In this document: positions 15,155 to 58,632 of the stretch, piece by piece | How the letters are laid out: each line of letters opens with the position of its first letter | How positions within the stretch are numbered: position 1 is the stretch's first letter | Source of the DNA: Microglena sp. YARC | Lineage: Eukaryota > Chlorophyta > Chlorophyceae > Chlamydomonadales > Chlamydomonadaceae | Assembly (NCBI GenBank): GCA_022414725.1 | Contig: CM039462.1 | Coordinates: forward strand, 8,869,212-8,933,211 | Direction of reading: 5' to 3' | DNA length: 64,000 nucleotides | The notes under the pieces: generated by a model | What the model saw: only the letters and a program-made list of their open reading frames with translations | Told to the model about the DNA's origin: nothing | Database searches by the model: none | Position numbers and translations under genes: made by a program

Positions 15155-18100
15155 TTACTTCTTCTCGTTCAGGGCGTCAACTCCAGGGAGGACCTTACCC
15201 TCGAGCAGCTCCAAAGAAGCTCCGCCTACACAGGTCAAATCAGGTTATAAGCAGGGTTAAATCAGGTTATAATGATACATGTGGGTAGGTTATAAGCAGG
15301 GTTAAATCAGGTTATAATGATAAATGTCGGTAGGTTAAGCAGGGTTAAATCAGGTTGTAATGATACATGTGGGTGCCTATATCAAGGAAAATGTAATAAA
15401 CAGTAGACTGAATTTCCTGTAACAATAGGCTTGTATCTGCGACCTACCTCCGGTGGAGATGTGGCTCATCTTGTCAGCAACACCAGCCTGCTCAACAGCA
15501 GCGACGGAGTCACCACCACCGATGATAGTGATACATCCCTGGGGGGTCAGCTCAGCCAGGGTGTTGGCAATGCCAGTGGTTCCCTGGGAGAACTTGGGGA
15601 ACTCGAACACTCCCATGGGGCCGTTCCAGACAACGGTCTTGGCGTCAGCCAGAGCGTCCTGGAAGATCTTGATGGACTTAGGTCCGATGTCCAGACCCAT
15701 CCAGCCGTCGGGGATGGCGTCGATGTTGACGATCTGGCTGTTGGCATCAGCGTCGAAGTTGTCGGCGATGTTGACGTCAACGGGGAGCAGCAGCTCAACA
15801 CCCTGGAAGAAAATAGGCACGGGAGTCATGAGAGACAGTGGTGAGGGTTACTCCTAGGGAACAGCAATATGATATAATTTCATCATATGATGCCGGAAGT
15901 TTTTACAAGGGTTACCATTTATATACAATACCTTATGATGCAATTTGCATGACATCATACTCGCCTTTGATCAAAATCATGTGATATGCCTGTCCCTAGT
16001 TAAAAGGGACTTGAGGTAAGATGTGGTGGTGTTGAGGGTAGATGTGTTACAAGGGACTTGAGGCATGAGGTGGAGACAAGAAAACGTAGGTGCTTGCAAT
16101 CAAGACACAGCAGCGTAACACCCTGGAAGGCACTAGGCACGGGAGTCAAGAGAGGTAGTGGTCATGGTTTAGGTGTAACGAGGGACTTCCAGCAAGATGT
16201 GGTGGCGGTGGTGGTGAGGGTACAGGTGTTACAAGGGCCGTGAGGGAAGAGGTGGGGACAAGCCGACACAGGTGCTTGCACTCGAGCACTCAGGGCCACC
16301 CCCAGGGGAGGCAGTGTTTTCGTTTTGCGTGAGATAAGACAACACAGGTGATCACAGTTGAGCCATCAGGGGGCATTCAGCTGCATCATGGTATAGTTCA
16401 AGCAGGTCGCGAAGGTTGTCCAAGCAACAAGGGGACCCTGAAAGATGTAATGATCAGAGGATGAGTGTGTGTGTGCATTTGCCTGTGTGCGTGCGTGTGT
16501 GAGTGTGTGCAGGTTGCCAAGGTCGTCCAAGCAACAAGGGGACCCTGAAAGATGTAATGCTCAGAGGATGAGTGTGTGCGTGTGCATTTGCCCGTGTGCA
16601 TGTGTGCGTGCAGGTTGCGAAGGTTGTCCAAGCAACAAGGGGACCCTGAAAGATGTAATGATCAGAGGATGAGTGTGTGCATGTGCATTGGTCTGTATGC
16701 ACGTGGCACCCCCATAAGGCAAGCCCCCAAGGCTGTAACGTGGCACCCCCAAGACACCAAGATGCGCTATGTCGCACTTGTGCTACAAGTAGCACCATGA
16801 ATACAAGTCTGGACTTGTGGTGTTTCCCTAAGGACCCCCTGAATCCCAGGGGGGGGACACTTTTGGGGGACGACATGGGACGATATGGTCCCTAGTTGTT
16901 TTGTGTTGTTGTAGCACAGCCATGGGTTGTGTACGTCTTGTTTTGGTCCCCCTTGTGTGTGTTGGTCCCCCTTGATAAGTCATACATATTGATGTGTAGA
17001 TTGTATGTGTCGTGCAAAAACGTTTTCATACAACTCCAACATCTTCTCTAGGGTAAGAGCCAGCCCTAGCCTGTCATCCTCAACCAGGTAGTATAGATCC
17101 TTTTGTCAGTTTCTGCGTTTTTAATCTCAACTTCTCCTTGGCCATCTTCTCCAGGGTTCGAGCCAGCTCCAGCATCATCCTCACTCAATGACTTCAGATC
17201 CTTTACGTTTACAGGTTTTTATTTATTCTTCTTAAGTTTGCACGTTTATAATCTCACCTTGTCCTTGGCCATCTTCTCCAGGGTAAGGGCCAGCTCCAGC
17301 TTGTCATCCTCAACCAGAGACTTGCCGACGGACAGACCGCGGGCCTTGTAGAAAGTGAAGATCATGCCTCCACCGATGATGACCTTGTCAGCCTTGTCAA
17401 GGAGGGACTCGATGACAGGGATCTTGGTGGACACCTTGGAGCCACCAACAATGGCGACGAAAGGCTTCTTGGGGTCGGTGACGGCTCCTGTGGGGAGCGT
17501 GGGGAGTCGGTGATCAGTGGGGTGTCTATGTATAGAGGGAGTCAGTTTGGTGGTTGTACAGGCGAGACTCGGTGTCGGTGATCTTGGTGTACACCTTCGA
17601 GCCACACAAAATGGCGACAAAGGGCTTCTTGTGGTCGGTGACGGCTCCAATGGGGGGCGTGAGGAGTCGGTGATCAGTGGGGTGTTTATGTATAGAGGGA
17701 GTCAGTGTCTTAAGTTGGGTGTCTATGTATAGAGGAAGTCGGTGTCTCCGCATTAAGGGAGTCGGCAGCTCATGCGGTGAGTCAGAGGGCAGTGGGGTGT
17801 CTATATCGAGGGAGTTGTTGCCTAACCATGTGAAAGGCCTTGAGCTTCTCTTTCACAATAAGCAATGAAATTAAAGCTGCTAGAAGCGACCATGAGTACA
17901 ACTCACTGTCAAGAGAATCATGTATAACCTTGATATAAATATAAATAATTGTCACGATATGTAGAACAATTAAAGCTACTAGAAGCGACCATGAATATAA
18001 ATCACCAAAGCGACCACGAATAGAAAATGTCAAGTTAGTCATATATAAACTAAACATACATACAATTAAATATAAGTGGCCATAAATAGAACTCACCGTC

Positions 18101-21100
18101 AAGGTAGTCATACATAACATATATATAAGCGGCCATAAATAGAACGCACCGTCAAGGTAGTCGAGCTCCTTCTGCATCAGGAATCCGCAGACGGAGATGG
18201 GCAGGAACTTGGTCACACCCTCGGTGGAGGCGTGGGCGCGGTGGGCAGTTCCGAAAGCATCGTTGACGTAGATGTCAGCGTTGGCAGCCATCTGGTACGG
18301 TATGGGTGGTGGAATGTTAGCAGGTAATCAGCCACGCAACTGTGAAAATCAGGCAGACGGGCAGGCAATTGTGGAAATCAGGCAGGCTGCCGAGGAAACT
18401 GAGGAAATCAGGCAGGCATGCAATTGTGGCAAACATGCATGATAACTGAGAAAATATTGATGAACATCACACACTCTTGTATCTAGGGACCGGAAAATCA
18501 TATGTTGACCAGAGGTGGTATGAAATTGTATGATGACATACAAAACTGATCACATGATCTTGTATATTGATGGCTACTGTAGCCTACTGGTACGATATCA
18601 ATATATCAAATGGTATCATATTGCCGTTCCCTACTTATCTTAACTAGCCCTACACATGCACTAAGCTTATACTAACTTATACCAACTAACCCTTCACATG
18701 CACAGGACTACAAGGAAGAAACCAGTACTTCAAAAATACAAAAAAACAAGTAAAAAAACCAAGTACTTCATTCCCAATACAAAAAACCAAGTACTTCATT
18801 CCCAATACAAAAAACCAAGTACTTCATTCCCATTACAAAAAAACAAGTACTTCATTCCCAATACAAAAACCACGAAGCCAAGTTGAGGAAATTACAGCCA
18901 AGTTGAGGAAACACAAGCCAAGTTGAGGAAAATACAAGCCAAAGTTGGCCAAGTTGAGGAAACACAAGCCAAGTTGAGGAAAATACAAGCCAAAGTTGGC
19001 CAAGTTGAGGAAATGACAACCTACTGATATGGGTGGCTGTTCCCCTTCATCCTCAACATTCTATGCTTTCGTGTGGATGCCGTGTGCTGAGAGAAATAAT
19101 GTGTGATGTGGGTGATGGGCGTCCATTCTTGATCTTTTCCTTCTTTTGGTATATATCCAATGTTTCAATTTTTGATTAATTTGCCTTTGCCCCTGCGAGT
19201 GGCCTGAATGGAAATACAAATAATAGATGCAATAATAGCAGATAATCATACAAATAATAAATGTAATGAATAATAATAGATAATCATCAAAATAATAAAT
19301 GTAATCAATGATAACAGATAATAATACAATAAATGTCATCACCTTCTCAGCGAACTCAGTAGACGTTTTTGGTTTCCCCTTCTCGAAGAACTACGGGGCT
19401 AGCCAACGAGGCTGGAAGGGACCTTCAACAATAAAAACATTCACAACCCACCACCACGATACATAAGGTGTAATCACCTTCACAGCAAACTCATAGATAC
19501 GAGGACGCCTCTTCCTTGATGTATGTATATAATGTCATGATGTTTGATCTATCAATCTCTCCCCCTGGCCAGAATGTACTTAAACATAGAATAATGAGTT
19601 GCTAGAAAGAATAATGAGTGGCTAGAATGTACAAAAACATAAAATAATACTAATAAATGTAAACAACACAACAGTAATAACAATATTCACCTTCTCGGCA
19701 AACTCGGAGACATTCTTGGTCTCCTCCTTGTAGAAGCGGACGTTCTCCAACAGGACCAACTGGCCGTTGGACATAGCCTTGACGGCCTCCTCAACGGGGG
19801 CGCCAATGCAGTCATCGACTAGCTTGACCTACAGTTGTTTATGAAAGGAGAGTGTGCTAAGCAGGTGATTTTTGGAAGGGGAGTTATTTTGAGGGTGTGT
19901 GGGCAGGTGGGTAGGGGGCGCCAATTCAATCATCGACCAGCTTGACCTACAGTTTTTGTGAAAGGAGGGTGTGTTCAGCAGGTGATTTTTGAAAGGGGAG
20001 TTATTTTGAGGGTGTCTGGGTGGGTGGGTGGGTAGGGGGCGCCAATGTCATCGTCCAGCTTGACCTACACGTGGAAAGGGGATAAGGATCATGCAACTTC
20101 ATGCAATGTTTATGCGTACGTGTGATTGTGACAAGTGCAGAGTGCGGGAGAGAAGTAGGATGACATCCATGCAACTTCATGCAGTGTGTGTATGTGTGTT
20201 TGTGACAGGGAGTGCCGGAGAGAAGTAGAATCAGAACCATGCATGCAACAGAGGATTGTGGTTCAACAGCATCCATGATGATCCAACGTAAGATCGCGGA
20301 ACGACAGGTGCAGAGCGTTAGATATGAGGATCAGATCCATGATGATTCATGCAACATAGGATTGTGGTATGACAGGTGGAGAGCATGTGACAAGAGGATC
20401 AGATCCAATATGATCCATGCAACATAGAATAGCAATTTCACGCTTAGAGAATCTGGGGGAGGAGGACTGGGTCCATGCATGCACCCATGCAACTTGGAAT
20501 TGTGTCAAAACAGGTGGAAAGGAGGAGGATCCGCTCTGTTCAACTCCATGCACTCTGCACATTCCATACAGCTTCTGCAAGGCTGGGAATACACATGCAA
20601 TGAATTGAATGCAGGCAGCTTGAAGGTTGGCAATCAACAGGACAGAAAACCAATTTGCATGCTTAGGTCATTGATAATGATCGTAAATAACTAACTATAT
20701 AATTAGGCACCTTATTACAAGGCGTGAGGATGAAGGGGCCGGCTCGTTTGCTTGCATCAACCACCAACTGTGTAAATAACTCACCTCCTGGCCGAGGAGC
20801 TCAGACAGGCGGCCAAGGACGGGGGCCAGGGAGAACTTAGCCTTGTCAGCGGCCTTGTCCTCGCACTTTGGGCGGCCCTGCAGGTATGTCAATAAGTGGT
20901 TTGGTGATTAGTAAAGTGGTGATTGGTTAAATGAGTAATGAAGTCACAAAAAACCTGGTTAGTTAGCTACCTAGATAACATGCAGCTAGTTGGCTAGATC
21001 AAATTGTGAGATTCACCGACCCATTCTTCATGGACATTCGTCGATCTCGCCCACCGAGGCATGCAACGACAGCAGACTAGATCTCTCACGCATGCATCGA

Positions 21101-22670
21101 CCGATGATGCTAAATATCATCCTCAGATAATGTTAGCCGCATGGGACAGAAAACGACGTGCACTGACTCTCCCGCCGCTCTCAGGCCAATACGAGACTCA
21201 GACGGAGATGCATAACACCTGTCGCTATCCGACCAAGAAAGGAGACCACCCTTCAAATCCACGAATCCGAGATCAGGAGAATACATCTGGATATCCGGCA
21301 TCACCAAGCGCAAGAGTGCATGTGACGCTTCGGGTTACCCTCGTCTTCCGAAGTCCAAATGCTCGCCTACATGCGAGACGATGCCCGATCAGAAGGGACA
21401 GGGTGCTACACACCAAACACCCGCTCCGAGTTATCACCCCGCCCCGAGTAAAACAAAACGTACACACCATCTAGCAGCAGCATCAGCATTTCATCTATTC
21501 AGTTTCTTTCCACCGCATGCCTATCACAACCCACCCATCCCAAATGCGTCCCATCGGAACCAAACATCACGACGCGCCCCATGCCTACATCCCTACCCCT
21601 CCTACTGCCCATCGGAATCAAACATCAAGAGTCACCCCCCGTATAGTCACCACCCCATCTACCCAACCACCACCCGTCAGAAACATTTTCATCACGACTC
21701 ACCAAGTGAGAGGTCAGGAGAACCTTGGCTCCGTTCTCGAGCAGGTACTTCAGGGTGGGGATGGCAGCCCTGATACGGGTGTCATCGGAGATGGACAGGT
21801 CCTTGCCGAGGGGCACGTTCAGGTCAGCGCGAACCAGGACGCGCTTGCCCTCGAGGTCGGCCTTGGTCAGGTCACCGACGGACTTCTTGGCAGCCTCAAC
21901 GGTTACGTTGTTGCGGCGAGAGACGCGGGAGACCATGGAGGGGGAAGCGAAGCTGGCGGAGCCCACGAAGGCCTGTGTGGGGAGGGGTGAAGAGGGGATG
22001 GGAGTGCACGAGAGGGGTTCAGGACAGGCGCCGAGCCTGGTCTTACAAGGTTGGAAGTCGTTAGAAGGCTGCGTTCGACATCTTCGGACAATAGTAACCC
22101 ATGGCGACGCATAGTGATCATCGGGCATAGTAACCCATAGTGAAGCATATTCCCAGGTGGGGCTGTGCATTGCGGTAGGGGAGGTGTCGAGTTCGAGGTC
22201 TATCTAATCTGATCGTCGGTTGGCAGGTAGCACATGGCCAGGAAAACGCAGTGAGTCAGCAATCAAACGTTTGATAATAGCAGGAAAGATAAGATAGCAG
22301 GAAAGTCCCGTAGCAACGATTTAACCACCGAGACTACGCTAGATCGATGGCATGATCGAGGAGAAGATTAGCTAGATCAAGTAAGATTGGATTTGGGTGG
22401 GGTGGGGTGGGGTGGGGTGGGTGGGGTGGGGGGGCTAACAAGCGGCTCTGAGATACTTCGAGAGCATCCATTAGAAGGCGATAACAGGGACGTTTCAACT
22501 AATGGGCAGATCGCATGGATCATCTGCGGTATCACCTTGCGGAGTGGCATGGCAGCAACGGGGGTGGCACGGGCGGTGCGAATGGAAGCGGTGGGGCGCA
22601 CGGCCACAGCGGAGCGCTTGGAGGCGGTGGCCACAGGGGCGGAGGTGCGCATCTTCATCATAGAGGCCAT
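15155..22670 (-). CDS. PGK1: Plastid phosphoglycerate kinase, eight exons
   Basis: Catalyses 1,3-bisphosphoglycerate + ADP to 3-phosphoglycerate + ATP, run in reverse in the Calvin cycle; acts in the plastid stroma. Exons (minus): 22670-22536, 21972-21703, 20877-20785, 19828-19691, 18291-18150, 17487-17258, 15802-15448 and 15225-15155. All introns are GT-AG and phases match throughout, giving 477 codons ending TAA. Residues 1 to about 69 are a Ser/Ala/Arg-rich transit peptide; the mature part starts near [11 protein letters not shown]. Signatures: VRADLNVPL (92-100), [20 protein letters not shown] (132-139), [13 protein letters not shown] (222-234), [19 protein letters not shown] (hinge), [13 protein letters not shown] (395-407), IIGGGDS and [14 protein letters not shown]. 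The start context is AACAAAATGG. The symbol follows the Chlamydomonas name. Introns 3-6 contain partial copies of adjoining exon edges. Confidence 0.97.
15230..15376. repeat. PGK intron 7 tandem repeat
   Basis: Three copies of a 55-65-bp unit built from AGCAGGGTTAAATCAGGTT, ATAATGATACATGTGGGTAG. It fills most of the 222-bp intron between exons 7 and 8. Confidence 0.8.
16100..16165 (-). pseudogene. Partial copy of PGK exon 7 acceptor junction
   Basis: CAGCAGCGTAACACCCTGGA followed by GCACGGGAGTCAAGAGAG (plus strand) copies 15787-15838, the first codons of exon 7 plus about 35 bp of upstream intron. It lies upstream of exon 7 in transcription order, in intron 6. Confidence 0.7.
16405..16700. 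repeat. PGK intron 6 minisatellite (about 95 bp x 3)
   Basis: Three tandem units sharing AGGTTGTCCAAGCAACAAGG, GGACCCTGAAAGATGTAATG and CAGAGGATGAGTGTGTG, followed by a GT-rich stretch. Frames on both strands across it are artefacts. Confidence 0.8.
17035..17215 (-). pseudogene. Two partial copies of PGK exon 6 donor end
   Basis: 17040-17100 and 17141-17205 (plus strand CATCTTCTC.AGGGT, GAGCCAGC) repeat the last 60 or so bases of exon 6, whose genuine end is at 17258. Both lie downstream of the real donor, within intron 6, and are diverged and unspliceable as complete exons. Confidence 0.75.
17525..17760 (-). pseudogene. Partial copy of PGK exon 6 acceptor end
   Basis: The minus-strand translation reads [19 protein letters not shown], compared with [19 protein letters not shown] in genuine exon 6. 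The preceding intron sequence and acceptor region are copied too. The segment then degenerates into repeats of TGTCTATGTATAGAGG up to 17760. It lies upstream of exon 6, in intron 5. Confidence 0.85.
17880..18125 (-). repeat. Copies of PGK exon 5 donor junction
   Basis: At about 17895-17930, 17990-18040 and 18072-18112 the plus strand repeats GCGACCA.GA.TA, AACTCACCGTCAAGGTAGTC. This is the exon 5 end (DYLDG) plus the start of intron 5. The genuine junction is at 18149/18150. Some copies carry a better donor (GTGAGT) than the real one (GTGCGT). Confidence 0.75.
18735..19020. repeat. PGK intron 4 short tandem repeats
   Basis: Four to five copies of AAGTACTTCATTCCCAATAC plus an A-run (18760-18870), then six copies of AAGCCAAGTTGAGGAAA-type units (18880-19015). 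Confidence 0.85.
19335..19520 (-). pseudogene. Two copies of PGK exon 4 donor end
   Basis: Around 19339-19395 (CACCTTCTCAGCGAACTC) and 19478-19520 (CACCTTCACAGCAAACTC) the end of exon 4 (SEFAEK, then GTGA) is repeated with divergence. Both lie downstream of the genuine junction at 19690/19691, in intron 4. Confidence 0.7.
19905..20080 (-). pseudogene. Two copies of PGK exon 4 acceptor end
   Basis: At 19915-19960 and 20033-20075 the plus strand repeats GGGGGCGCCAAT, ATCGACCAGCTTGACCTAC: the first codons of exon 4 (VKLVDD), the acceptor, and intron. They lie upstream of the genuine start at 19828. Confidence 0.75.
20700..20765. repeat. LTR-like fragment in PGK intron 3
   Basis: Shares TTACAAGGCGTGAGG and GGCTCGTTTGCTTGC with 12365-12420 beside the gypsy remnant, so it is probably a small fragment of that element. 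It sits within about 85 bp of the exon 3 donor. Confidence 0.45.
22387..22435. repeat. GGGGT microsatellite in PGK intron 1
   Basis: Six to seven GGGGT pentamers ending in a G run; the G-rich strand could form G-quadruplex structures. Confidence 0.85.
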
Positions 22671-23415: not shown

Positions 23416-23420
23416 CTTTT

Positions 23421-24208: not shown

Positions 24209-24278
24209 GTGAGTTGGCTTGGCATCAAATGAAACCTATGGTGGTGGTGGTGGTGGGAGGGGGGAAGGGGGAGGGGGG

Positions 24279-24313
<35 letters not shown>

Positions 24314-24711
24314 AGGGGTAATCAGATGGGCCACCCCACAAGTGAGTTAAGCATTGACCAGTAGAGTGTACAAATGTGGTATGGAAGGAAGCAAATGTCT
24401 TGGCGTCAAATGAAACCTATGGTTGATGGTGGTGGTGTGTGTGTGTGTGTGTGTGGGATGGTGGGGGGGAGGGGGAGTCGGGGTGGGGAGGTGTGTGGGT
24501 GGGTGGGTGGGTGGGGGGGGGGGGGGTAATCAGATGGGCCACCCCATAAGTGAGTTGAGCATTGACTAGTAGAGTGCACAAATGTGGTATGGAAGGAAGC
24601 AAATGGCTTGGCGTCAAATGAAACCTATGGTTGGTGGGTGGGGGGTGGGGTGGGGGGAGAGAGAGATTGTGCTGGTGGAGGGAGGGGGAGAAGGATGGGG
24701 GTGGGGGTGGG

Positions 24712-24743
<32 letters not shown>

Positions 24744-25985
24744 AGGGAGATGGGGGTGGTGGAGGGAGGGAGGCCGGGGGATGGTGGTGGTGGTGGTGGT
24801 GGGGGGGGTGTAGTCAGTTGGACTCTCCGTAAGTGAATTAAGCATTGACTCAGTAGAGTGCACCAATGTGTTATGGAAGGAAGTAAATGGCTTGGCGTCA
24901 AATGAAACTATGATTGATGGTGGTGTGGGGGGGTGATGGTGGTGATGGAGGGGGGGTCAGATGTGGCCACCCCACAAGTGAGTTGAGCATTGAACAATGC
25001 ACACATGTGTTATGGAAGGAAGCAAATGGCTTGTAGCCAAATGAAACCTATGGTTGATGGGGGTGGTGGGGGTGGGGGTGTGTGGTATGGTAGGGGGGAG
25101 GGGGAGCCGGGGGTGGGGGGCGGGGGGGAGGAATCGAATGGGCCACCCCACAAGTTGAGCATTGACCATCAGAAGTGCACAAATGTCTTGGCGTCGAATG
25201 AAACCTATGATTGATGGTGTGTGTGGGGGTGGGGGGGGGGGGGGATTGTGGTGGTGGAGGGTGGAGGTGGTGGGGGGGGAGGGGGGGGGGGGTCAGATGG
25301 GCCACCCCACAAGTGAGTTGAGTATTGAACTATGCACAATGTTGTCAAGGAAGGAAGCAGATGACTTGGCGTCAAATGAAAACCTATGATTGATGGTGTG
25401 TGTGGGGTGGGGTGGGGTGGGTGGAGGGAGGGGGGGGGGGGGGGGGTCAGATGGGCCATCCCACAAATGAGTTGAGCATTGGACTAGTAGAGTGCACCAA
25501 TGTGTTATGGAAGAAAACAAATGGCTATGGCGTCAAATGAAAGCCTATGATTGATGGTGGTGGAGGGAGGAAGGGGTGGGGGGGGGGGGGGGGGTAATCA
25601 GATGGGCCGCGCCCACACAAGTGGAGTTGTGGAAGGAAGCAAATGGCTTGGCGTCAAATGAAACCTATGATTTGATGGTGTGTGTGTGGGGGGGGTGATG
25701 GTGGGGGGGGAGGGGGGGGGGGGGATAATCAGATGGGCCACCCCACAAGTGAATTGAGGCATTGACTAGTAGAGTAAACAAATGTCAAAATGGTGGTATA
25801 GAAGCAACTGGCATGGTGTCATATGGAACCCTATGGTTGGGTGTGTGTGTGGGGGGGGTTATCAGATGGGGCACCCCACAAATGAATTGAGCATTGAACA
25901 ATAAAGTGCACAAATGTTTTATGGAAGGAAGAAAATGGCTTGGCGTCAAATGAAACCTATGATTGATGGTGGTGGGGGGTAGGGG
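24209..25985 (+). repeat. Donor-junction array of hydrolase exon 1
   Basis: About nine tandem units of 130-220 bp. Each starts with the end of exon 1 plus its donor (ATCAGATGGGCCACCCCACA then AGTGAGTT) and continues with intron sequence (GGAAGCAAATGGCTTGG, CGTCAAATGAAACCTATG). Poly-G/GT stretches of variable length separate the units. Gly/Pro/His frames through it are artefacts. Confidence 0.9.
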
Positions 25986-25994
25986 GTGGTAAGG

Positions 25995-27310: not shown

Positions 27311-27409
27311 TGGGGACCCCGGCCGGTGTACCACCATCACCGTGACCACCACCCATCACCACCACCCACTACCACCACCATCAACCAACACCATCATCAC
27401 CCAACCACA

Positions 27410-28126
27410 TTTCAACATCCAGCGTCTGGCCCTGCACCTTCAGCTATTGCTCCGAATGTACGGCTGATTGGTTACCCACGTTGACTGGCGCCACCTTAAC
27501 CTCCACCTCCACCAACACCAACACCAGCACCCAGCACCACCAACACCATCACAACACCAAACACCAACACCACACACCCAACACCAACACCACCATTCTG
27601 GCCCTTCACCTTCAGCTATTGCTCCGATATGTTCGGCTTATTGGTTACCCCACGGTTGACTGGCGCCACCTTTAACCTCCAACACCACCGTCCACCATCA
27701 CCACCATCACTACCACCACCACCATTCTGGCCCTGCACCTTCAGCTATTGCTCCCGGATATGTACGGCTGATTGGTTACCCCGCACATTGACTAGCGCCA
27801 CTTTCACCACCACCACCACCACATCACCACCACCACCTGACTAACCACCCTCCATCACTACCACCACCCATCACCAACCACTATCACCCACCACTACCAC
27901 CACCATCACTACCACCGCACCATCACCCACCACCACCACCATTCTGGCCCGCTGCACCTTCAGCTATTGCTCCCAATGACTACGGCTGATTGGTTACCCC
28001 ACATTGACTAGCGCCACTTTCAACACACCACCCACCACTGAATACCACCACAACACCACCAAACCAACCACCATCATCACTACCACCAACACCAACACCA
28101 ACACCATGCTTGCCCTGCACCTTCAG
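27410..28126 (+). repeat. Acceptor-side copies of hydrolase exon 2
   Basis: Four tandem copies (starting near 27430, 27605, 27735 and 27950) of GGCCCTGCACCTTCAG followed by CTATTGCTCC, ACGGCTGATTGGTTACCC and TTGACTGGCGCCAC. They are separated by ACC-rich spacers. Each carries an acceptor and the start of exon 2; the last and probably genuine copy begins at 28127. Confidence 0.85.
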
Positions 28127-28216
28127 CTATTGCCCCAATAACTACAGCTGATTGGCTTACCACGTTGACTGGTGCCACTTGACCACAACTACTGGACCGC
28201 ATGCCGCTATGATGAG
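28127..28216 (+). CDS. Alpha/beta-hydrolase, exon 2 (probable)
   Basis: After the acceptor CTTCAG, joining in phase 1 to exon 1 gives GHP-T-IAPITTADWLTTLTGAT. Hydrolase-fold homologues commonly have VxPLxRADWLPTLTGGSF at this point. A one-base deletion near 28180 seems to break the frame; with it corrected the frame would continue as DHNYWTACRYDE to a possible donor at 28216. This is the most 3' of five tandem copies. Later exons were not identified. Confidence 0.5.
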
Positions 28217-28365
28217 GTTCCGTGCAGCGCTGGGCATGTGATGTATGGAGGCCCGCGCAGGGAAGATAGCCGGTGTTGGAGTGTTTTTATAGATACAAAA
28301 ATAAACATTGGAGTTCGTGCAAAGTTCGTTTGGCACTCGAAATATAGCCAACCACATATGCATAT

Positions 28366-28580
28366 ATACACATACATACATACATACATACATACATACA
28401 TACATACATACATACATACATACATACATACATACATACATACATACATACGTACACACATACATACATACATACATACATACATACATACATACATACA
28501 TACATACATACATACATACATACATACATACATACATACATACATACATACATACATACACACATACATGCATACACACA
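28366..28580. repeat. CATA tetranucleotide microsatellite
   Basis: About 50 uninterrupted or nearly uninterrupted CATA units; the Ile-His-Thr-Tyr and Val-Cys-Met frames are artefacts. Confidence 0.97.
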
Positions 28581-29060
28581 GAGACATTACATCACACAAT
28601 ACACACATACATTATGCACAGACATACACACACATACACACACGTACATGCACACAGAGACACACACGCACAGACACACAGACATGCACATACACACACA
28701 TATACGCACACATACACACACATGCACACACATATACACACACATAAACACACAAACACACATACACATACACACACATGCACACACATACACATACATA
28801 CACACACATACACACACATACACATACACATACATATACACACATGCCCACACATACACACACATGCACACACATACACACACATACACATACATACACA
28901 TACACACATGCACACACATGCACACACACACATACACACACATTCACACACATACACATGCATACACATACACACATACACACACATACACACACATACA
29001 CACACATACACACACATGCACACATGCACACACATACACATACATACACACACACACTCA
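28581..29060. repeat. CACACATA-type microsatellite
   Basis: Continuation of the CATA tract as mixed CACACATA, CATACA and CATGCA units over 480 bp. Confidence 0.95.
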
Positions 29061-29289
29061 TCATGTCCAGGTGGCGCTGCCCCCCAAAAACCCCGGGCTC
29101 CAGTGCTTCACCGCTCCGCCATGCAAATCCGCCAGCCATGGCTATGCACCAATCCTACCATGTCACAACCGGTCTTAACAGAATTCTCCTACAGAAATCC
29201 AATTAACAAAACACTCGAATAACCACCACCAACCAACCAACCACTATTCGCCCAGATTGCCAGTACCTGAACTGCATTAACCCACACTG

Positions 29290-41100: not shown

Positions 41101-44100
41101 CTTGAATATCTTGTCGCTCATGCAGCTTGTTGCCTACGCACCAGCCGAGGTATGCTACCCATACATGCTGCTGCACTAAAATAAGTCCTCCCTCCCAACC
41201 CATCACCCACCTTCAAGCGTGGGCCTTGATCTTGAGCGTCTTCCGCTTCTAGATATCTAGTCACCTACGCAGCTTGTTGCCTACGCACCAGTCCAGAATA
41301 TGCTGCCCATACTGATAGATGCTGCACACTAAGAAAACTCCCTCACCAACCCATCACCCACCTTCAAGTGTAGGGCGGATATTCAGGGTCTTCAGCTTCT
41401 TGATGTCTTGTCGCCTACGCAGCTTGTTACCTACGCACCAGTCGAGGTATGCTGCCCATACTGATGCTGCCACACTAAACAACACTCCCTCCTCTCAACC
41501 CATCATCCACCTTCAAGCGTTGTTCGGATATTCACCGTCTTCGGCTTCTTGATATCTCGTCGCCTAAGCACCAGTCCAGATATGCTACCCATACTGATAG
41601 ACGCTGTCACACTAAACAAAACTCCCTCCTCCCAACCCATCACCCACATTCAAGTGTTGTACAGATATTCAGCATCTTCCAAGTCTTGATATCTTGACGC
41701 CTACGCACCAACCCAGGTATGCTACCCATAGATGCTGCCAAACTACACAAAACTCCCTCCCTCCCAACCCATCACTCACCATCAAGCGTGTGGCGGACAT
41801 TCAGCGTCTTCCGCTTCTTGATAAAGTGTGATCGACGGAGCTTTGTCGCCTACGCACCAACCCAGTATGCTACCCATAGATGCTGCCGCATTAAAAAAAA
41901 ACTCCGTCTCTCCCAACCCATCACCCACCTTCAAGCGTGGCACGGGTATTCAGCGTCTTCCGATTCTCTTGATATCTAGTCGCCTAAGCGCCAGTCCAGG
42001 TATGCTAACCATACTGATGCTGCCGCACTAAAAAAGAACTCCCTCCCTCCAACCCATCGACCCACCTTCAAGTGTGGCCGGAATTTCGACTGTCTTACGC
42101 TTCTTGATATCTGGTTGCTACGCAGCTTTTCGTCTACGTACCAGGCGAGGTATGCTACCCATTACATGCTTCCAACCTAAACAAAACCCCGTCCCTCCCA
42201 ACCCATCACCTACCTATCAAGCGTGGGACGGGTATTCAGGCATCTTCCGCTTCTTGATATTTTGTCCCCTACGCACCAATCCAGGTATGCCTACCCATAG
42301 ATATTGCCAAACTACGCAAAACTCCCTCCCTCCAACCCATCACTCACCATCAAGCGTGTGGCGCACATTCAGCATCTTCCGCTTCTTGATATCTTGTCGC
42401 TCATGCAGCTTGTTGCCTACGCACCAGCCGAGGTATGCTACCCATACATGCTGCTGCACTAAAATAAGTCCCTCCCTCCCAACCCATCACCCACCTTCAA
42501 GCGTGGGCCTGATCTTGAGCGTCTTCCGCTTCTAGGTATCTAGTCACCTACGCAGCTTGTTGCCTACGCACCAGTCCAGATATGCTGCCCATACTGATAG
42601 ATGCTGACACACTAAGAAAACTCCCTCACTCCAACCCATCACCCACCTTCAAGTGTAGGGCGGATATTCAGGGTCTTCAGCTTCTTGATGTCTTGTCGCC
42701 TACGCAGCTTGTTAACCTACGCACCAGTCGAGGTATGCTGCCCATTACTGCTGATGCTGCCTACACTAAACGAAACACTCCCTTCCTCTCAACCATCATC
42801 ACCTTCAAGCGTTGTTCGACATACTTCACCGTCTTCGGCTTCTTGATTATCTCGTCGCCTAAGCCAGTCCGATATGCTACCCATACCTGATAGACGCTGT
42901 CACACTAAACAAAATTCCCTTCCTCCCAACCCATCACACATTCAGCGAGTGTTGTACAGATATTCCAGCATCTTCCAAGTCTTGATATCTCTGAACGCCT
43001 ACGCACCAACCCAGGTATGCTACCGCATACATGCTGCCAAACTACACAAACCTCCCTCCCAACCATCACTCACATCAAGCGTGTGGCGGACATTCAGCGT
43101 CTTTCCGCTTCTTGATAAAGTGTGATCGAGCGCAGCTTGTCGCCTACGCACCAACCCAAGGTATGCTACCCATAGATGCTGGCCGCATTAAAAAAACTCC
43201 GTCTCTCAACCATACCCACTTCAAGCGTGGCACGGGTATTCAGCGTCTTCCGATTCTTGACTATCTAGTCGCACTAAGCCGTCCCAGTCCAGGTATGGCT
43301 AAACCATACTGAATGCTGCCGCAACTAAAAAGAACTTCCTTCCCTACCAAACCATCACCCACCTTCAAGTGTGGGCACGGATCTCGAACTGTCTTACGCT
43401 TCTTGATATACTGGTTGCCTACGCAGCTTTTTCGTCTACGTACCAGGCGAGGTATGCTACCCAACATGCTTCCAACCTAAACAAACCCGTCCCTGCCAAC
43501 CAAACATCAACTACCTTCAAGCGTGGGACGGGTATTCAGCATCTTCCGCTTCTTGATATTTTGTTCCCCTACGCACCAATCCAGGTTATGCTTACCCATA
43601 GATATTGCCAAACTATCGCAAAACTCCCTCCCTTCCAACCCATCACTCACCCATCAAGCGTGTGGCGCACATTCAGCATCTTCGCTTCTTGATATCTTGT
43701 CGTCATGCAGCTTGTTGCCTACGCACCAGCCGAGGTATGCTACCCATACATGCTGCTGCACTAAAATAAGTCCCTCCCTCCCAACCATCACCCACCTTCA
43801 AGCGTGGGCCTGATCTTGAGCGCGTCTTCCGCTTCTAGGTATCTAGTCACCTACGCAGCTTGTTTGCCTACGCACCAGTCCAGATATGCTGCCATACTGA
43901 TAGATGCTGACACACTAAGAAAACTCCTCACTCCCAACCATCCAACCCACCTTCAAGTGTAGGGCGGATATTCAGGTCTTCAGCTTCTTGATGTCTTGTA
44001 GCCTACGCAGCTTGTTGCCATACGCACCAGTCGAGGTATGCTGCCCATACTGATGCTGCCACACTAAACAACAACTCCCTCCTCTTCAACCCATCATCCA

Positions 44101-44498
44101 CCTTCAAAGCGTTGTTCGGATATTCACCGTCTTCGGCTTCTTGATATCTCGTCGCCTAAGCACCAGTCCAGATATGCTACCCATACTGATAGACGCTGTC
44201 ACACTAAACAAAACTCCCTCCTCCCAACCCATCACCCACATTCAAGTGTTGTACAGATATTCAGCATCTTCCAAGTCTTGATATCTTGACGCCTACGCAC
44301 CAACCCAGGTATGCTACCCATAGATGCTGCCGCATTAAAAAAACTCCGTCCCTCCAACCCATCACCATTCAAGCGTGCACGGGTATTTCAGCGTCTTCCG
44401 ATTCTTGATATCTAGTCGCCTAAGCGCCAGTCCAGGTATGCTAACCATACTGATGCTGCCGCACTAAAAGAACTCCCTCCCTCCAACCCATCGCCCAC
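32199..44498 (-). repeat. 12.3-kb higher-order array of an exon-donor junction
   Basis: About 88 monomers of 125-155 bp, arranged as a nine-monomer higher-order unit of about 1.27 kb. The same monomer variant starts near 34140, 35455, 36770, 38064, 39328, 40598, 41864 and 43158. On the minus strand every monomer contains a copy of the end of the exon at 44499-44845: CTGGAC..GTGCGTAGGCG, ACAAGATATCAAGAAGCGG, AAGACG, CTTGAAG. Donor-like GTGGGTGATGGG and about 70 bp of intron (GGGAGGGAGTTTTGTTTAG, GCAGCAT) follow. The array lies directly downstream of that exon in its intron. Bases 38-42 kb are clean; 32.2-38 and 42.7-44 kb carry many single-base indels that look like uncorrected read errors. 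Confidence 0.93.
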
Positions 44499-44845
44499 CT
44501 TCAAGTGTGGGCCGGATCTTGACCGTCTTCCGCTTCTTGATGTCTTGTCGCCTACGCAGCTTGTAGGCGCACCAGTCCAGGTAGTCTTCTAGCTGTGTCC
44601 TGGTGTCAACCAACCTATCCAGCAGAGGCTCCAGACGGGACTGGTCCCACACGGGGTTGACTGCAGCTACGGAGTCATTCCCATAGGAATACTCGAATTC
44701 GGTGCGGATGAAGCCCCTCACCACCAGGGAAGTCTCTTGATGGAGGCCTTCCTGAGCTGCAAAGGCCTCCTCTGCCTGATTCCAAACGTTGAGCTTGGGG
44801 TCGTTCCATTGTTGAACTCTGTTGCCTCCGGCATATAATTTGAAC
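44499..44845 (-). CDS. Channel exon: end of cytosolic loop (347 bp)
   Basis: Acceptor TTCCCCAG, donor CTTGAAG/GTGGGC. Translation includes DPKLNVWNQAEEAFAAQEG, TSLVVRGFIRTEFEYSYG and DQSRLEPLLDRLVDTRTQLE, followed by LRRRQDIKKRK and KIRPTLE. The LxxLVxxRxxLExxL then KRPT pattern is that of the OSCA cytosolic domain. Small insertions near its 5' end (44800-44842) break the frame relative to the upstream duplicated copies, which read in frame as VQIMPEATEFNMDDPKL. It is flanked by acceptor copies upstream and by the 12-kb donor array downstream. Confidence 0.75.
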
Positions 44846-47800
44846 CTGGGGAAATATTGGATTTGTTTGGGTTGGGTTGGGTTGGATTGATTGGATCCTC
44901 TGCCTGCCTCCAAACGTTTAGCTTGGGGTCGTCCATATTGAACTCTGTTGCCTCCGGCATAATTTGAACCTGGGGAATGGATTGGTTTGGATTTGTTTGG
45001 GTTGATTGGATATTTCGCCTGCTTCCATACGTTTAGCTTGGGGTCGTCCATGTTGAAACTCTGTTGCCTCCGAGCATAAATTTGAACCTGGGGGAATGGA
45101 TCGGTTTGGATCGGTTTGGATTGGTTTGGATTGGTTGGATTGGATCCTCTGCCTGCTTCCAAACGTTTAGCTTGGGGTCGTCCATATTGAACTCTGTTGC
45201 CTCCGGCATAATTTAAACCTGAGGGAATTGAATGGATTGGATTATATGGGATTGATTTATCTTATTCCTGCTGCTATACATTGAGCTTGGGGTCGTTCAT
45301 ATTGACCTCTTGCTACCTTTCAGTGTTTTTATTTCAGATTTCTGAAGTGCAGGTTTGAGTAGCTACTTGGGCTACTAAACCCTGATTTCAGGATAGTTGG
45401 CGTAGCCATCGCATGGCGGTGCGCTAAGCCGCGAAGCCTGGGGGGGGTCGGGGGGTCTAGGGGGTGTAGTATTCTACGGAATGGCGACGCGTGGCGAAAA
45501 ATGAAACACTGGTTAGTCCTTCTTACTCCTTAATGGGGCGCTTAACTGCCACGCAGTGACATGGATAAGGTCAACACTACTACACCACACTCCTGAGTTC
45601 AGAATGCATTCACAGGGGGGGGGGAAAACAATACTATTTTACACTTGGAAGTACAGCATGCAATCACACAGATAATGTCAACACTACTACACCACACTCC
45701 TGAGTACAGCGTGCAATCACATGGGTGGCATAAACAGTACTACACTACACGCCTGCATACAGGGGGGGGGGGGGAGTGAATGTTCGTTTGGTCGTGGGTT
45801 GGTATCTCTCACCAACCCTAAGTGTGCCTACTTTGCATATTGTAGGAGTGGCACCACCATTCAAACTAAATCCTCCGTGTCGCTGGTTTGTGTCGGGAGA
45901 CCCACCTCCTGGCGTGAAAGTCCTTTCACAACTAAAGAGGGAAAAAATACAGCATGCAATCACATGAACATTGTCAACACTACTACACCACACTCCTGAG
46001 CACAGCAAGCAGTCACAGGGGTGGGTGTAAACACTACTACACTACACTTCTGCATACAGCATGCAACCACATGGACACTGTCAACACTACTACACCACAC
46101 TCCTGAGCACAGCAAGCAGTCACAGGGGTGGGTGTAAACATTACTACACTACACTCATGTGTACAGAGTGCAATCACACGAGAGTCAATAGTACCTGAGG
46201 GATCTCCTTAAACGGGGCGCCCACTGCCGCTATCATTTGCATGGCCTCCATGCCAGCTAGCTCCAGCTGTGCCTGCATATCATCCATGAAGGTCTCGGGT
46301 TTCCCAGACTTTATCATTCTATGTCCTCTGGGCTGTCAGCGCCTGAGCCAGTCCTGGTTTTTTTGTCCTTGTTCACCTTGCCAGTGCTGGATAGGGTGGT
46401 GGCGTTGGCTGCTGTGGTGGCACTGGGTGCCGTGGTGGCACTGGGTGTGTGTGTGCAGAATGCGGCAGCGAGGTAGGGGCGCCCTTTACGACAGCGGGGT
46501 CGCCAGGCTTTGCATTCGTGACCGACATTTTCCTGCGGGGCAACGACGTTCAAGTTGGATACAAACAAAGTTTATATAAAGAGGTTAAAGCCCTCACGAC
46601 AGTGGGGTCGTTAGGATTTGCAATCGCGGCCGACTTTTTCCTGCGGGGCAACGACGTTCAAGTTGGATACAAACAAAGTTTATATGAAGAAGGTTAAAAG
46701 CCCTCACCGACAGTGGGGTCGTCAAGGATTGCAATCGCGGCCCGACTTTTTCCTGCGGGGCAACGACGTTCGAGTTGGAAACAAACAAGGTTTGTATGAA
46801 AAGGTTAAACCCTTCAGTCCCATGTTATATAAGATACATAATGTTCAAGTTTTTTGCTGTTTTCTCATGAAACCTGAAAATGTAGGTTTTGTGTCCTAAC
46901 AACGGACGGACGGACATGTTTTATTGGGGTAATCCCTTCTTCAATTTTATTTTTCCATTCGGGTACCAGAAGGCACATACTCATACTCATCAGTCCCAGC
47001 ACCACCCAGCACAGGCCTACCCTAGTGTAACTCATATAACCAGAAGGCACATACTCACTCTGTTCCCGCGAGCTTTTTTACATTATCCACTCTCTACATT
47101 GCACACCGCAAACGGTCCCAACCGGCGTGGCCTTCAAAATTAATCAATCAACCAGGGCATGGCCTTTTCAGAACTCACTCTGTGGTCCGCGACCTTTGTC
47201 CATTATCCACTCTCAGTCCTTCGGAGACTGTTCCCAACGGCATGGCCTTCTAACCCCCCCCCCCCCCCCCCCTCCCGCCCTCCCAACCAGGGCATGGCCT
47301 TCTCAGACTCACTCTGTTCCCGCGAGCTTTGTTCCGATTATCCACTCTCTAGATGTCCACCGTGACTGTCCCAACGGCATGGCCCTTCTAGACCCCCCCC
47401 CCCCCCCCCCAACCAGGGCATGGCCTTCAGACTTCACTCTCGTCCCGCCGAGCTTTGTTCCAGTTATCACTCTCAGTCTAGCTAGAGACGGTCCCAACGG
47501 CGTGGGCATCACTCCCCCCCCCCCCCCCCGCCCCCCCCGCCAACCAGGGCATGGACTTCGGGACTAACTATGTCCCCGCTGAGCTTTGTTCTCATTATCC
47601 ACTTTCAATCCACTGGAGAGGGCCCCAACCGGCATGAGCCTTCTATACCAACCAACCAGGGCCATGGCCTTCAGACTCACTCTGTTCCCACGCGAGGCTT
47701 TGTAACATCGTCCACTCTCCATCTCCACTAGAGACGGTCCCAAAATATCCCTCAACCTTGTCCAAAAACCCTTTGCGTTTGCTCTTCGGGAGACAAAGCA

Positions 47801-49018
47801 GGATTGTGTTGCTCAGGACCTGCGTACAGTGTGAGTGTGTCCTCCTTTAGGGATCAGGATTTTTGGTCCTGTTTCCAAAAAACCTTCACGTTTGCTCTTC
47901 GGGAGACGAAGCAAGATTGTGTTGCTCAGGACCTGCGTACAGTGCTGAGTAGGTGCACTGATAAAATGGACCATAACAAGTCCTATGCAGCGTCGCAAGC
48001 GACGCGGAATTGCAGAGGTGTGTTGGCCAACGGAAGAAGGGATCGCAACGATGGAGCTGACCGACAGCGAGTTAGTTACGGCGATCCCGGTTGGATGACG
48101 TGTCGGGCGGGCAAGAAATTTGTTGGTCAGACAAACGGACAAATGGGTAACCCTGGGGGCTCCCGCCCCCTTGAAGAGGGGGCTCCACCAAAAACCAACT
48201 GTTCGAATGCCGTGCTGACCATTGTGCTAACGGTATATGTGTGCGAGCACCCTTGTTGGCCCTTAACGGTTGGTTTACTCTTCCTTGTTCAAGAAAATCC
48301 GGGACGCAAACCGTTGTTGTGCTTGCTGTACTGTAGTGGTGGAGACAAGGCCAGTGATGTGGGGGGCACACACAGTACGACGCTCTTTAGGGAAACGGCT
48401 CTTTACCGCTCTCAATAAACAGACCTCACTGATAACTTGGCCGAAAGTTACAGTGTACAGTTATTGGCTCGCCCCCCCCCACCCCCCACCACCCACCCAC
48501 CCTTCGAGCCCTGCTGCACGAGTCTGCCCCCCCCCTCCTTCTGACCTCACCGATAGCAAGTACCAGCCCACTGTACCACACCCCACTCCTGGGCTAGGCA
48601 TCACAAACACAGTGCGCAAGGGACCCCCTGGGGCTGTTGTCATCTATAGCTTGCAGCACACTGAGCCACACGACGTACGAAGTATATGAATGATAGCCCT
48701 CCTTCCCTCCCCACCCACCATACTCACCGCTCGCAAGTACCGAAAACCAATAGTACATAGCATTCCTGGTATGTCTGTCACCAACACAGTATGGAGAGGG
48801 ACCCCCCTGGGACTGGTTGGCTAGGGAACATAATGCGGATGATGTTGACCTCCTGGTTGTACCTCCAAAGAATCTGAAACGTGGGGGCGGGGGGGGGAGG
48901 AGTAAGTTCTCTATTTGTTTTAAAATGGCTAGGAACGCAGATGAAGCTGACCTCTCCTGGTTTGTACCTCCAAAGAATCTGAAAATGGAAATTCACAGTG
49001 TGTGTGTGTGTGTGGTGT

Positions 49019-49050: not shown

Positions 49051-52000
49051 GTAAGTATTCATATTCACGAAATAAAAAATAAAAAAATAAAGTAGTATTG
49101 TAAGTATTTGGCTAGGAACGTGATGCGGATGATGCTGACTTTCTGGTTGTGCCTCTAAACAATCTAAACTGTAAATTCACGATGGGGGGGAATAAGAGTC
49201 AGTTTTTCTATGCATTCATTAGAAGTTAAATGTTTTATTTATTTGGCTACAAAGATGATGCGGATGATGCCGACCCAACGTGGGGGGCATGAGTAAGTTC
49301 AGTTTGAACTGCAAAATGGGGTCCCATATAGCGATTGCATTATATAACTACCAAGTTACACGCAGCGTCGCAAGCGACGCTACAATTGGCGGAGAGTGCT
49401 CGCAACAGAGCAATAGGTGGCAACGGTAGCGAGCGGAATTACGAGACTGTTGGCTGACGTGTCAGGCTTCGTCTCGGTCAGACGGCCGGACGCATGGACA
49501 ACATGGTGACCCTATAGCTGATTATAGCTGATTGTAGCTGATTGTAGCTGATTATAGCTGATTGTAGCTGATTATAGCTGATTGTAGCTGATTGTAGCTG
49601 ATTGTAGCTGATTGTAGCTGATTATAGCTGATTATAGCTGATTATAGCTGATTTTAGCTGATTATAGCTGATTGTAGCTGATTGTAGCTGATTATAGCTG
49701 ATTATAGCTGATTGTAGCTGATTATAGCTGAGACGAGACTACACGAGCTTCAACGTGCAGGACCAAATGTTAATATACACACATACATAATAGGCTTGGC
49801 GCTCTCCGTCAGTATGACGTATGCCATTACGTGACTACACGAGATTGCAGCTGCCTGCTCTATAGTGTGTGGCAGCTGGAGGCCTGGTGCTTGCAACATG
49901 GCAGTGCTCATGACTTCCACATCTATGTGCAGGACCATATGTTAATATACATACACATATATAATAGGCTTGGCGCTCTCCGTCAGTATGACGTATGCCA
50001 TTACATGACAACACGAGCTTACCTACGCGAGATTGCAGCTGCCTGCTGTATACTCTATGGTAGCTGGAGGCCTGGTGCGGGCAACAAGGCAGTGAACATG
50101 AGTACACACACCAGCTACATGCACATGCAGGACCATACATTTATGTACACATATATAATAGGCTTGGCGCTCTCCGTCAGTATGATGTACACCGTTACGT
50201 GACTACACGAGCTTGCTGCTGCCTGCTGCATACTGTGCAATAGCTGGAGGCCTGGTGCATGCAACACGGCAGTGCACATGAGTATGCACACCAAGTACTG
50301 GCCCCACTGTTATACAGACTACTGTTATACTGTGAAGGACCAAACAAGGCCTGGTGCTCACGGACAGGATGATGTACGTGATAACGTATGCAGTGACAAG
50401 GTGAGCCCAGAACTTGCTGCTGCCTGTTACATACTGTACAGTAGCTGGAGGCCTGCTGCTTGCAACACGGCAGTGCACATGACTACACACATCAACTACA
50501 TGTACAGGACCAAAAAGGCTTCCAGGAATACATCAGCTTGCTGTTTTCTGATATATGCTGTACAGTAGCTGAAGGCCTGCTGCTTGCAACACGGCAGTGC
50601 ACATGACTACACACATCAACTACATGTACGGGACCAAAAAGGCTTCCAGGAATACATCAGCTTGCTGTTTTCTGATATATGCTGTACAGTAGCTGAAGGC
50701 CTGCTGCTTGCAACACGGCAGTGCACATGACTACACACATCAACTACATGTACGGGACCAAAAAGGCTTCCAGGAATACATCAGCTTGCTGTTTTCTGAT
50801 ATATGCTGTACAGTAGCTGGAGGCCTGCTGCTTGCAACACGGCAGTGCACATGACTACGCACATCAAGTACAATGTACAGGACTAAACAAGGCTCCAGGA
50901 AATACATAAGAGCTTGCTGTTTCCGATATATACACTGTACAGTAGCTGGAGGCCTGCTGCTTGCAACACGGCAGTGCACGTGACAACGCACATCAGCTAC
51001 ATGTACCACTGTAATACATACTACTATAATACTGTACAATACCAAACAAGGCTGGGCGCTCACCGACAGGATGATGTACGTGATAACGTATGCAGTGACA
51101 AGGTGAGCCCAGAACTTGCTGCTACCTGTTACATACTGTACAGTAGCTGGAGGCCTGCTGCTTGCAACATGGCAGTGCACATGACTACACACATCAACTA
51201 CATGTACAGGACCAAAAAGGCTGGGCGCTCACCGATAGGATGATGTACGTGATGACGTATGCAGTGACAAACATGAGCCCCAGAACTTGGGGCTGCCGGT
51301 TCCAGTTGGTGAGGCTGAGCTTAGTCAAAGTGTGACAAATCGAACCTGGTACGTTTGGTGGTGTGGTGGGTAAGGTAGGTGGGGGGTGGGGGGGTAAGGT
51401 GATCAGGGGGTAATGTAGGTGGGGATGGCAATTTTTTCAGGCAATTTTTCAGGCTTCCCGGTTCCAGGTTGGTGAGGCTAAGCTTATCAAAGTGTGACAA
51501 ATCGAACCTGGTACGTTGGCATGAAAGGTGGGGGGTAAGGTAGGTGGGTGGGGTGGGGTAAGGTGATTAAGGGGGTAATGTGGGTGGGGGATGGGATGGG
51601 ATTGTTTTGCTTTCAGGCACCTTTTCAGGGCTTTCCCGACTCCAGGTTGGTGAGACTGAGGCTGTCAAAGTGTGAACAAATCGAACCTGGTACGTTGGCA
51701 TGGAAGGTTGGGGTAAGGTAGGGTTGGGGTAAGGTGGGTGGAGGTGATGGTAGGTGGGGGGGTTAGGGTGGGGGGGTTGGGCGGGGGGGGGGGGGGGGGG
51801 GGGGGGGGGTAAGGTGTGGGGGGGGGAGGGGGAGGTAGGTTGGGGGGTAAGTGTGTGTGTGTGGGTAGGGTAGATTGGGGGCGGTAAGGTGTGTGTGGGG
51901 ATCAGGTGTGTGGGGGGGTAAGGAGGTGGTGGTGGTGGTGGTGTGTAAGGTAGGTTGGGGGGTAGTGTGTGTGTGTGGGGGGGGGGGGGGGGGGGATAAG

Positions 52001-58000: not shown

Positions 58001-58632
58001 CACCACCACCACCACCACCTTCACCAGCACCAGCACCACTCCTTTCCACCACCACCACCACCACCACCACTCCTTACCACCACCACCACCACCACCTTCA
58101 CCAGCACCACCACCACTCCTTACCACCACCACCTTCACCAGCACCAGCACCAGCACCACTCCTTACCACCACCACCACCACCACCTTCACCACCACCACC
58201 ACCACTCCTTACCACCACCACCTTCACCAGCACCAGCACCACTCCTTACCACCACCACCACCACTCCTTCACCACCACCCACCACCACTCCTTACCACCA
58301 CCACCACCACCTTCACCACCACCACCACCACCACTCCTTACCACCACCACCACCACTCCTTACCACCACCACCACCACCTTCACCAGCACCACTCCTTAC
58401 CACCACCACCACCACCACCTTCACCAGCACCAGCACCACTCCTTACCACCACCACCAATACTCACCGAGAGGTTGATAGGCAAAATGATAATGAGGCACC
58501 ATAGGCTGATGTAAACGAATGTCTCCCAGACTGCATAGAGGAAAGGAGGCCAGAGGGGGTGTATGTTCTGATGTTCTGATGTTGTGTGTGTGTGTGGGGG
58601 GGGGGGGGGGGGGGTGTGTGTGTGTGTGTGGT

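Follow-up and report, generated by a model that had tools for sequence, protein, structure and literature searches.

Why should the introns of unrelated genes contain row upon row of copies of their own splice junctions? The question is raised by a window of 64,000 nucleotides of nuclear DNA from the green alga Microglena sp. YARC, located at C1:8869212-8933211 of a 568-Mb assembly of 2390 contigs with scaffolds of up to 195 Mb. The window harbors a PGK gene, a hydrolase-like gene and a gene for an OSCA-like channel. An earlier note on this DNA claimed that segments made of an exon edge and the adjoining intron are tandemly repeated in all three genes, and queries with the exon edges confirmed this. 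We suggest that introns very probably grow here by random tandem duplication that is filtered by splicing, with later expansion of some arrays.

Copies lie on one side of their own junction

In the window, 26 splice edges were tested with queries that cross the junction, 14 in PGK, 10 in the OSCA-like gene and 2 in the hydrolase-like gene. The raw totals were 15 acceptor copies upstream and 1 downstream, and 0 donor copies upstream and 103 downstream. Four non-adjacent matches were dropped (PGK_E2 at 25443, PGK_E3 at 18396, and the far matches of HYD_E1 and HYD_E2). All 14 of the remaining adjacent acceptor copies lie upstream and all 101 adjacent donor copies lie downstream, exactly as the earlier note had it. 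Copies were found at 13 of the 26 edges. Exon sequence continues uninterrupted into intron sequence in these copies, and only 2 of the 119 junction-query matches, both from hydrolase-like edges, lie more than 13 kb from their own junction. Many copies abut the native unit as tandem arrays or satellite units, and recent copies stand in tandem order; in PGK, divergence has obscured any such contact for the copies of the E4 donor, E6 donor and E7 acceptor.

The clearest gene model is that of PGK. The protein assembled by homology is identical to the EukProt model P0001 across all 420 residues (100%), and all eight exons, each intact, were placed in the window once the first exon of P0001 was added. 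Six matches of exon-only PGK queries score above the strongest background match (score 20), and all six are edge parts on the expected side. For E4 these are bases 1-33, found twice upstream, and 93-138 downstream; for E6 they are bases 1-94 upstream, and 165-230 and 171-218 downstream. Three weaker matches (scores 15-17) fall within the background. The E5 donor and E7 acceptor copies were gained from junction-spanning queries, and the two kinds of query together match the claim that PGK exons 4-7 carry edge copies. In total, 6 of the 14 PGK edges have copies and 6 of 17 repeat families are edge families, by our own count from repeat and edge searches. When P0001 was mapped, the duplicated PGK edges showed no extra whole exon and no extra intron; the copies lie inside existing introns.

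For the hydrolase-like gene, the claim for exons 1 and 2 was borne out at the donor edge of exon 1 (9 matches, one more than 13 kb off) and the acceptor edge of exon 2 (4 matches upstream and 1 match 29 kb off). Exon-only queries with seven exons of the window gave 11 copies of 5' parts upstream, 89 copies of 3' parts downstream and 5 core matches. In the OSCA-like gene, the channel exons listed at 44.5, 48.7 and 51.2 kb (hereafter exons 44.8, 48.8 and 51.3) are each duplicated at both edges, the donor-edge copy of exon 48.8 being found only as a weak match of an exon-only query. The exon at 46.2 kb, queried at its donor edge, gave no donor-edge copy above the threshold, and tandem repeats are present at 47.7, 52.7 and 55.6 kb, where the exons are putative. 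Nine of the thirteen exons listed as duplicated thus stand. Edge queries within the window found no copies at the first two OSCA-like exons.

Two further statements hold in part. Exon cores are single in PGK but not in exon 51.3, whose 5' and 3' copies jointly cover the exon. That introns are built from edge copies is right for the hydrolase-like intron (65% of its length, by hand-set intervals as for the other introns) and for the array intron of the OSCA-like gene (99%); it is too strong for PGK, where the share is 15-52% in four introns.

The pattern in other gene families

Three families were picked before any of their genes had been seen: chaperonin (PF00118), dynein (PF12774) and kinesin (PF00225). 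Of 64 chaperonin matches, the best 30 were examined with 1.5-kb flanks at a score of at least 21. Edge copies occur at 11 of these 30 loci, with acceptor edges copied at 8 and donor edges at 6; at least one locus, L008, looks intronless. All 25 copies of 5' parts lie upstream and all 24 copies of 3' parts downstream (49 edge copies), besides 4 core copies and 0 antisense matches. With junction queries, 23 acceptor copies lie upstream and 1 downstream, and 19 donor copies lie downstream and 0 upstream. Two whole chaperonin genes, chosen afterwards for having copies and overlapping the 30 loci, show them at 8 of their 11 exon matches (25 upstream, 23 downstream, 2 core), with no wrong-side or antisense copy.

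For dynein and kinesin the geometry was read from match tables alone, as partial exons beside whole ones. Dynein gave 6 copies upstream, 16 downstream and 1 core among 66 matches, with copies at 11 of 43 exon matches. Kinesin, for which 122 of 325 candidates were scored, gave 3 upstream and 5 downstream among 128 matches, with copies at 7 of 120 exon matches. No wrong-side edge copy occurs in the exon-query or table counts of the best 30 chaperonin loci, dynein or kinesin. The edge-copy pattern is real and is seen in every family sampled, beyond the window.

Mis-assembly could in principle produce false tandem copies; the window does hold a scaffold gap at 31199-32198, and single-base frame breaks suggest imperfect polishing. 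However, most copies diverge by 5-25% from the native junction, which misplaced reads would not produce; the PGK exons are intact, and several scaffolds share the pattern. An artefact is highly improbable. Just as remote is an origin by reverse splicing, intron transposition or retroposed fragments of pre-mRNA. The splice signals present in the copies would fit such a process, but reverse splicing would place intron sequence alone, at dispersed sites. It is contradicted because the copies are continuous exon and intron DNA; they also lie beside the native junction, are private to it within the window, and are on the same strand only, with no antisense match at the chaperonin loci or in the two whole chaperonin genes.

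How the introns would grow

In brief, the process would start with recurrent head-to-tail duplication of genomic DNA, with start and end points that are roughly random. A duplication that straddles a junction would be retained only if splicing keeps to the copy next to the exon, whereby the surplus junction turns into intron. When a duplication spans a donor and splicing stays with the first of the two, the surplus comes to lie downstream; for acceptors the mirror image would apply, and the unit would also have to bring a branch point and a pyrimidine tract. Slippage or unequal exchange may then enlarge young arrays until, in the extreme, they resemble a satellite and have higher-order structure. 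The idea of the earlier note, that a duplication which includes part of an exon is kept only where the surplus is intronic, is supported by the geometry in four gene sets, with one exception among the chaperonin junction queries. We take slippage or unequal exchange as the likely motor and the surplus junctions as nearly neutral decoys.

The need for a branch point and pyrimidine tract fits the lengths of the units. The units at 17 acceptor edges all contain at least 46 nt of intron, although uniform breakpoints would put 4.4 of them below 40 nt (P=0.005); at 13 donor edges, where a few bases suffice, 2.1 are expected below 40 nt and none was seen (P=0.08). It should be noted that this comparison was made post hoc, that its values were entered by hand from edges with at least 20 nt of exon, that simple rules or visual inspection defined the edges outside PGK, and that some edges share genes.

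Random or targeted placement

The geometry follows from tandem duplication and an intact frame, and so shows local copying of DNA across junctions; by itself it does not show targeting. We therefore asked how often untargeted duplication meets a junction. Growth of PGK was simulated with a hand-made list of 17 unit lengths and ancestral introns assumed to be 100-400 nt; median intron lengths in six related algae are 198-343 nt (PMC8226300). With full tolerance, 6.2-11.3 of the 14 PGK edges are expected to be duplicated, against 6 observed, and 24-37% of events fall on edges without any targeting, starting from short introns. With lower tolerance the simulation gives 2.1-10.1 edges and 6-26% of events. 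The comparison with a random tandem-duplication model proposed earlier is thus compatible with chance; random placement with a filter yields the observed frequency.

In six 10-kb samples of the genome, including one contig end, tandem repeats make up a median of 33% (range 0.04-0.82), showing that tandem duplication is common outside the window. Of the 70 tandem families at chaperonin loci, 7 touch an exon match, where 4.2 are expected at random, and 63 do not. Within the first kilobase from chaperonin exons, repeats cover a fraction of 0.16-0.24; the value drops to 0.10 by 1.5 kb, and the edge itself shows no peak. Most likely, tandem duplication, common in this genome, meets junctions about as often as chance predicts.

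The other view is that a process linked to junctions, such as R-loops or template switching coupled to transcription or splicing, starts duplications at the edges and that selection trims the result. Junctions themselves would then be hot spots of tandem duplication, through DNA damage coupled to transcription or splicing, and splicing would drive intron growth and could seed a satellite. We consider such a process rather unlikely, and the hot spots doubtful to the same degree. The slight excess of 7 over 4.2 families speaks for it, but the 63 families away from exon matches and the flat coverage at the edges speak against it, as do the similar numbers of acceptor and donor loci among the chaperonins and the exon overhang of the nearest copies, which varies from 13 to 180 nt. 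The untargeted model, moreover, already delivers the edge events at full tolerance, and initiation at splice sites, which the earlier note offered as its alternative, is not needed.

Several observations weigh against random placement with a splicing filter. Half of the repeat families in the two whole chaperonin genes (12 of 24) are derived from edges, a share too high for simple placement unless the introns started out short; this favors a junction-linked start, while the same count in PGK is 2 of 10. Tandem repeats of period 10 or more occupy 29% of the PGK introns, 43% of the hydrolase region and 53% of the OSCA region without the array, as compared to 2-14% of the flanks (1-15000, 59800-64000 and others), except for 51% at 28300-31198. 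Gene regions of the window are thus richer in repeats than most flanks and the process may be non-uniform, again as a junction-linked start would have it. The relative exon overhang is non-uniform (Kolmogorov-Smirnov P=0.001), which we read as an effect of the filter, and a positional bias would look similar; this test requires at least 20 nt of exon, excludes the PGK E5 donor (13 nt) and E7 acceptor, and uses values entered by hand. The core copies (4 at chaperonin loci, 5 in window exons, 2 in the whole chaperonin genes and 1 in dynein) fit poorly, and one acceptor copy at locus L025, where the edge call is uncertain, lies on the wrong side. Finally, the evidence for the use of exon-proximal sites consists of reading frames and a gene model, which could be a prediction itself.

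Splice signals in the copies and choice of site

As claimed, the copies keep sequence resembling donors or acceptors, with GT or AG retained in most. In the satellite of the OSCA-like gene, 76 of 84 copies have GT, which is at the 70th percentile of the dinucleotide columns and indicates neither clear protection nor removal. Chaperonin copies keep AG in 22 of 24 and GT in 14 of 19 cases (36 of 43 together), compared to 0.73 for other dinucleotides. The retention of splice dinucleotides is about equal to that of their neighbors or slightly exceeds it.

The surplus junctions could be functional, as alternative or recursive sites or as decoys that tune splicing and are under selection. The retained GT and AG would suit such a role, but the retention is not clearly above that of neighboring positions, some copies carry stops or frame breaks in their exon part, and the array units homogenize in the manner of a satellite. 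We regard a function as improbable, more so than a junction-linked start of duplications.

The PGK frame is intact only with exon-proximal sites, which implies that the splicing machinery would have to skip surplus sites nearer to the partner exon; in the OSCA-like intron up to 84 surplus donor regions would be skipped. Exon matches of the other families join in a like manner to the PGK exons. Such use of the exon-proximal site would be as exon definition predicts. A Volvox survey (PMC4378016) inferred that the short introns in Volvox and Chlamydomonas are recognized by intron definition, from which this alga would need to differ. These strings of apparently unused splice sites are a natural test of competition between sites, that is, of whether the choice is led by the exon or by the intron. 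Most extreme is the OSCA-like intron, where GT is kept in 76 of the 84 surplus donor regions that were aligned. They are also a warning for gene predictors, which may meet dozens of false exon ends.

A satellite derived from a donor edge

The intron after exon 44.8 of the OSCA-like gene is at least 12.3 kb long, is bounded by the scaffold gap and holds 86 units, including one native unit. The units are mostly 125-150 bp long and head-to-tail, and most join the 3' end of the exon to the donor region and the first part of the intron; the donor junction is spanned by 84 copies. This array alone (32284-44575, minus strand) shows a higher-order repeat of nine units, that is, tandem monomers with multimeric periodicity. 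Identity between units is 0.93 at lags of 9, 18 and 27 units (0.934 at lag 9) and 0.76-0.78 at other lags up to 30, and the monomer closest to the native unit recurs at each ninth unit. A protein-coding exon edge has thus been turned into a satellite with higher-order repeats.

Genes and other features of the window

The coordinates of the genes and edge copies are given in Table 1. The PGK protein is nearest to those of Chlamydomonadales, with 83% identity to Chlamydomonas euryale and 85-86% to further contigs. The OSCA-like gene matches PF13967 (the RSN1_TM part only) with E=6e-9, and a second match (E=0.001) is below the curated cut-off. Its presumed assignment to OSCA draws on these matches, which lie elsewhere in the gene than exon 44.8, and on features of the family. 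When exon 44.8 was used as query, no homologue was found, searches of the gene against solved structures in single frames gave chance matches only, and one reading frame of 32.2-44.5 kb gave no match. A 131-bp repeat, present 3.3 times at 54916-55340 (minus strand), may hold a whole 36-nt exon with its acceptor and donor. For the hydrolase-like gene no Pfam family was found with the predicted protein and three frames of 23.0-30.2 kb; the label alpha/beta-hydrolase is that of the earlier note and presumably reflects a sequence motif.

Table 1. Positions of genes, native exons and exon-edge copies in the window
Feature	Position	Strand	Remarks
PGK gene, 8 coding exons	15155..22670	-	PF00162 matches; identity with EukProt model P0001
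PGK E1	22670-22536	-	
PGK E2	21972-21703	-	
PGK E3	20877-20785	-	
PGK E4	19828-19691	-	
PGK E5	18291-18150	-	
PGK E6	17487-17258	-	
PGK E7	15802-15448	-	
PGK E8	15225-15155	-	
PGK E4 acceptor-edge copies	19829..20069	-	upstream; 118-bp unit of 33 nt exon, acceptor and intron
PGK E4 donor-edge copy	19138..19412	-	downstream; 46 nt exon, donor and intron
PGK E5 donor-edge copies	17881..18149	-	53-bp unit and one decayed copy
PGK E6 acceptor-edge copy	17488..17706	-	160-bp unit, 94 nt exon
PGK E6 donor-edge copies	17040..17194	-	two copies
PGK E7 acceptor-edge copy	16100..16169	-	about 15 nt exon
Hydrolase-like exon 1 donor-edge copies	24209..25988	+	about 20-22 nt exon and donor, amid G-rich repeats
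Hydrolase-like exon 2 acceptor-edge copies	27373..28126	+	four copies; about 52-66 nt exon; native acceptor 28127
OSCA-like exon 44.8	44499..44845	-	native
Exon 44.8 acceptor-edge copies	44846..45305	-	three copies; 78 nt exon
Exon 44.8 donor-edge satellite	32284..44498	-	ends at assembly gap (32198)
OSCA-like exon 48.8	48728..48873	-	native
Exon 48.8 acceptor-edge copies	48926-48984, 49108-49198	-	
Exon 48.8 donor-edge copy	48551-48636	-	weak
OSCA-like exon 51.3	51233..51345	-	native
Exon 51.3 acceptor-edge copies	51458-51557, 51636-51730	-	
Exon 51.3 donor-edge copies	51033-51133, 50331-50431	-	three weaker at 49789-50190
First two OSCA-like exons	59391..59766	-	RSN1_TM region, with the intervening intron

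Single-base frame breaks occur in the hydrolase-like gene (28127-28240) and in the OSCA-like gene (48728-48873, 51233-51345 and 59537-59766), and would point to either an unpolished assembly or decaying genes. Pieces of a retroelement, which we take to be of the Ty3 type, are located at 12537-14305 (plus strand), with RNase H and integrase zinc-binding domains within 12537-13490. A degenerate array of CACCA pentamers, 4.4 kb long (5364-9748), has a strong strand asymmetry, with a GC skew down to -0.88. Short runs of AAACCCT, which we take as the plant-type telomere motif, lie inside tandem repeats at 29362-30006. ARAGORN predicted a tRNA-Ser (AGA) at 60931-61013 (minus strand), and an Rfam search gave no match.

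Comparison with known systems

Intron lengthening is usually ascribed to transposable elements and small insertions. This genome records another route of intron growth, outward from splice junctions. Exon duplication, as in mutually exclusive exons, also leaves extra exon sequence inside introns. Unlike the whole, frame-preserving exon copies of that arrangement, the copies here are mostly partial exon edges, some of them with stops or frame breaks. Centromeric satellite DNA of the alpha-satellite type has higher-order repeats. The OSCA-like array resembles it in being head-to-tail with a nine-unit period and 93% identity between blocks, whereas its monomer is the 3' end of a coding exon with its donor, and the array lies inside the following intron.

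Introner elements likewise shape introns by repeated sequence (PMC9860276). Introners form dispersed families that give rise to new introns, whereas the units here are private to one junction within the window.

The nearest relative is the gain of introns by tandem genomic duplication (the Rogers model), a known route exemplified by ATP2A1 and a potato RdRp gene (PMC3443670, PMC4974935). The likeness is a genomic tandem duplication that includes exon sequence. The potato duplication crosses an intron-exon boundary and inherits the branch site, pyrimidine tract and 3' splice site (PMC4974935). The earlier statement that no precedent is described was nearly right; the potato case is a single junction-crossing duplication in one gene. 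In the PubMed Central (PMC) literature, which mostly lacks subscription journals, we found no description of introns that grow across a whole genome by tandem copies of their junctions.

The phenomenon in Microglena is of a known kind, tandem duplication, at an unusual scale, and is directly useful for tests of splice-site choice. In the Rogers-model systems a new intron arises and the copied sites are used, whereas here an existing intron is lengthened and the copied sites come to lie inside it; a new intron bounded by duplicated sites is absent from PGK as modeled by P0001. Unlike in those cases, a single gene here has many such events, and several gene families show them.

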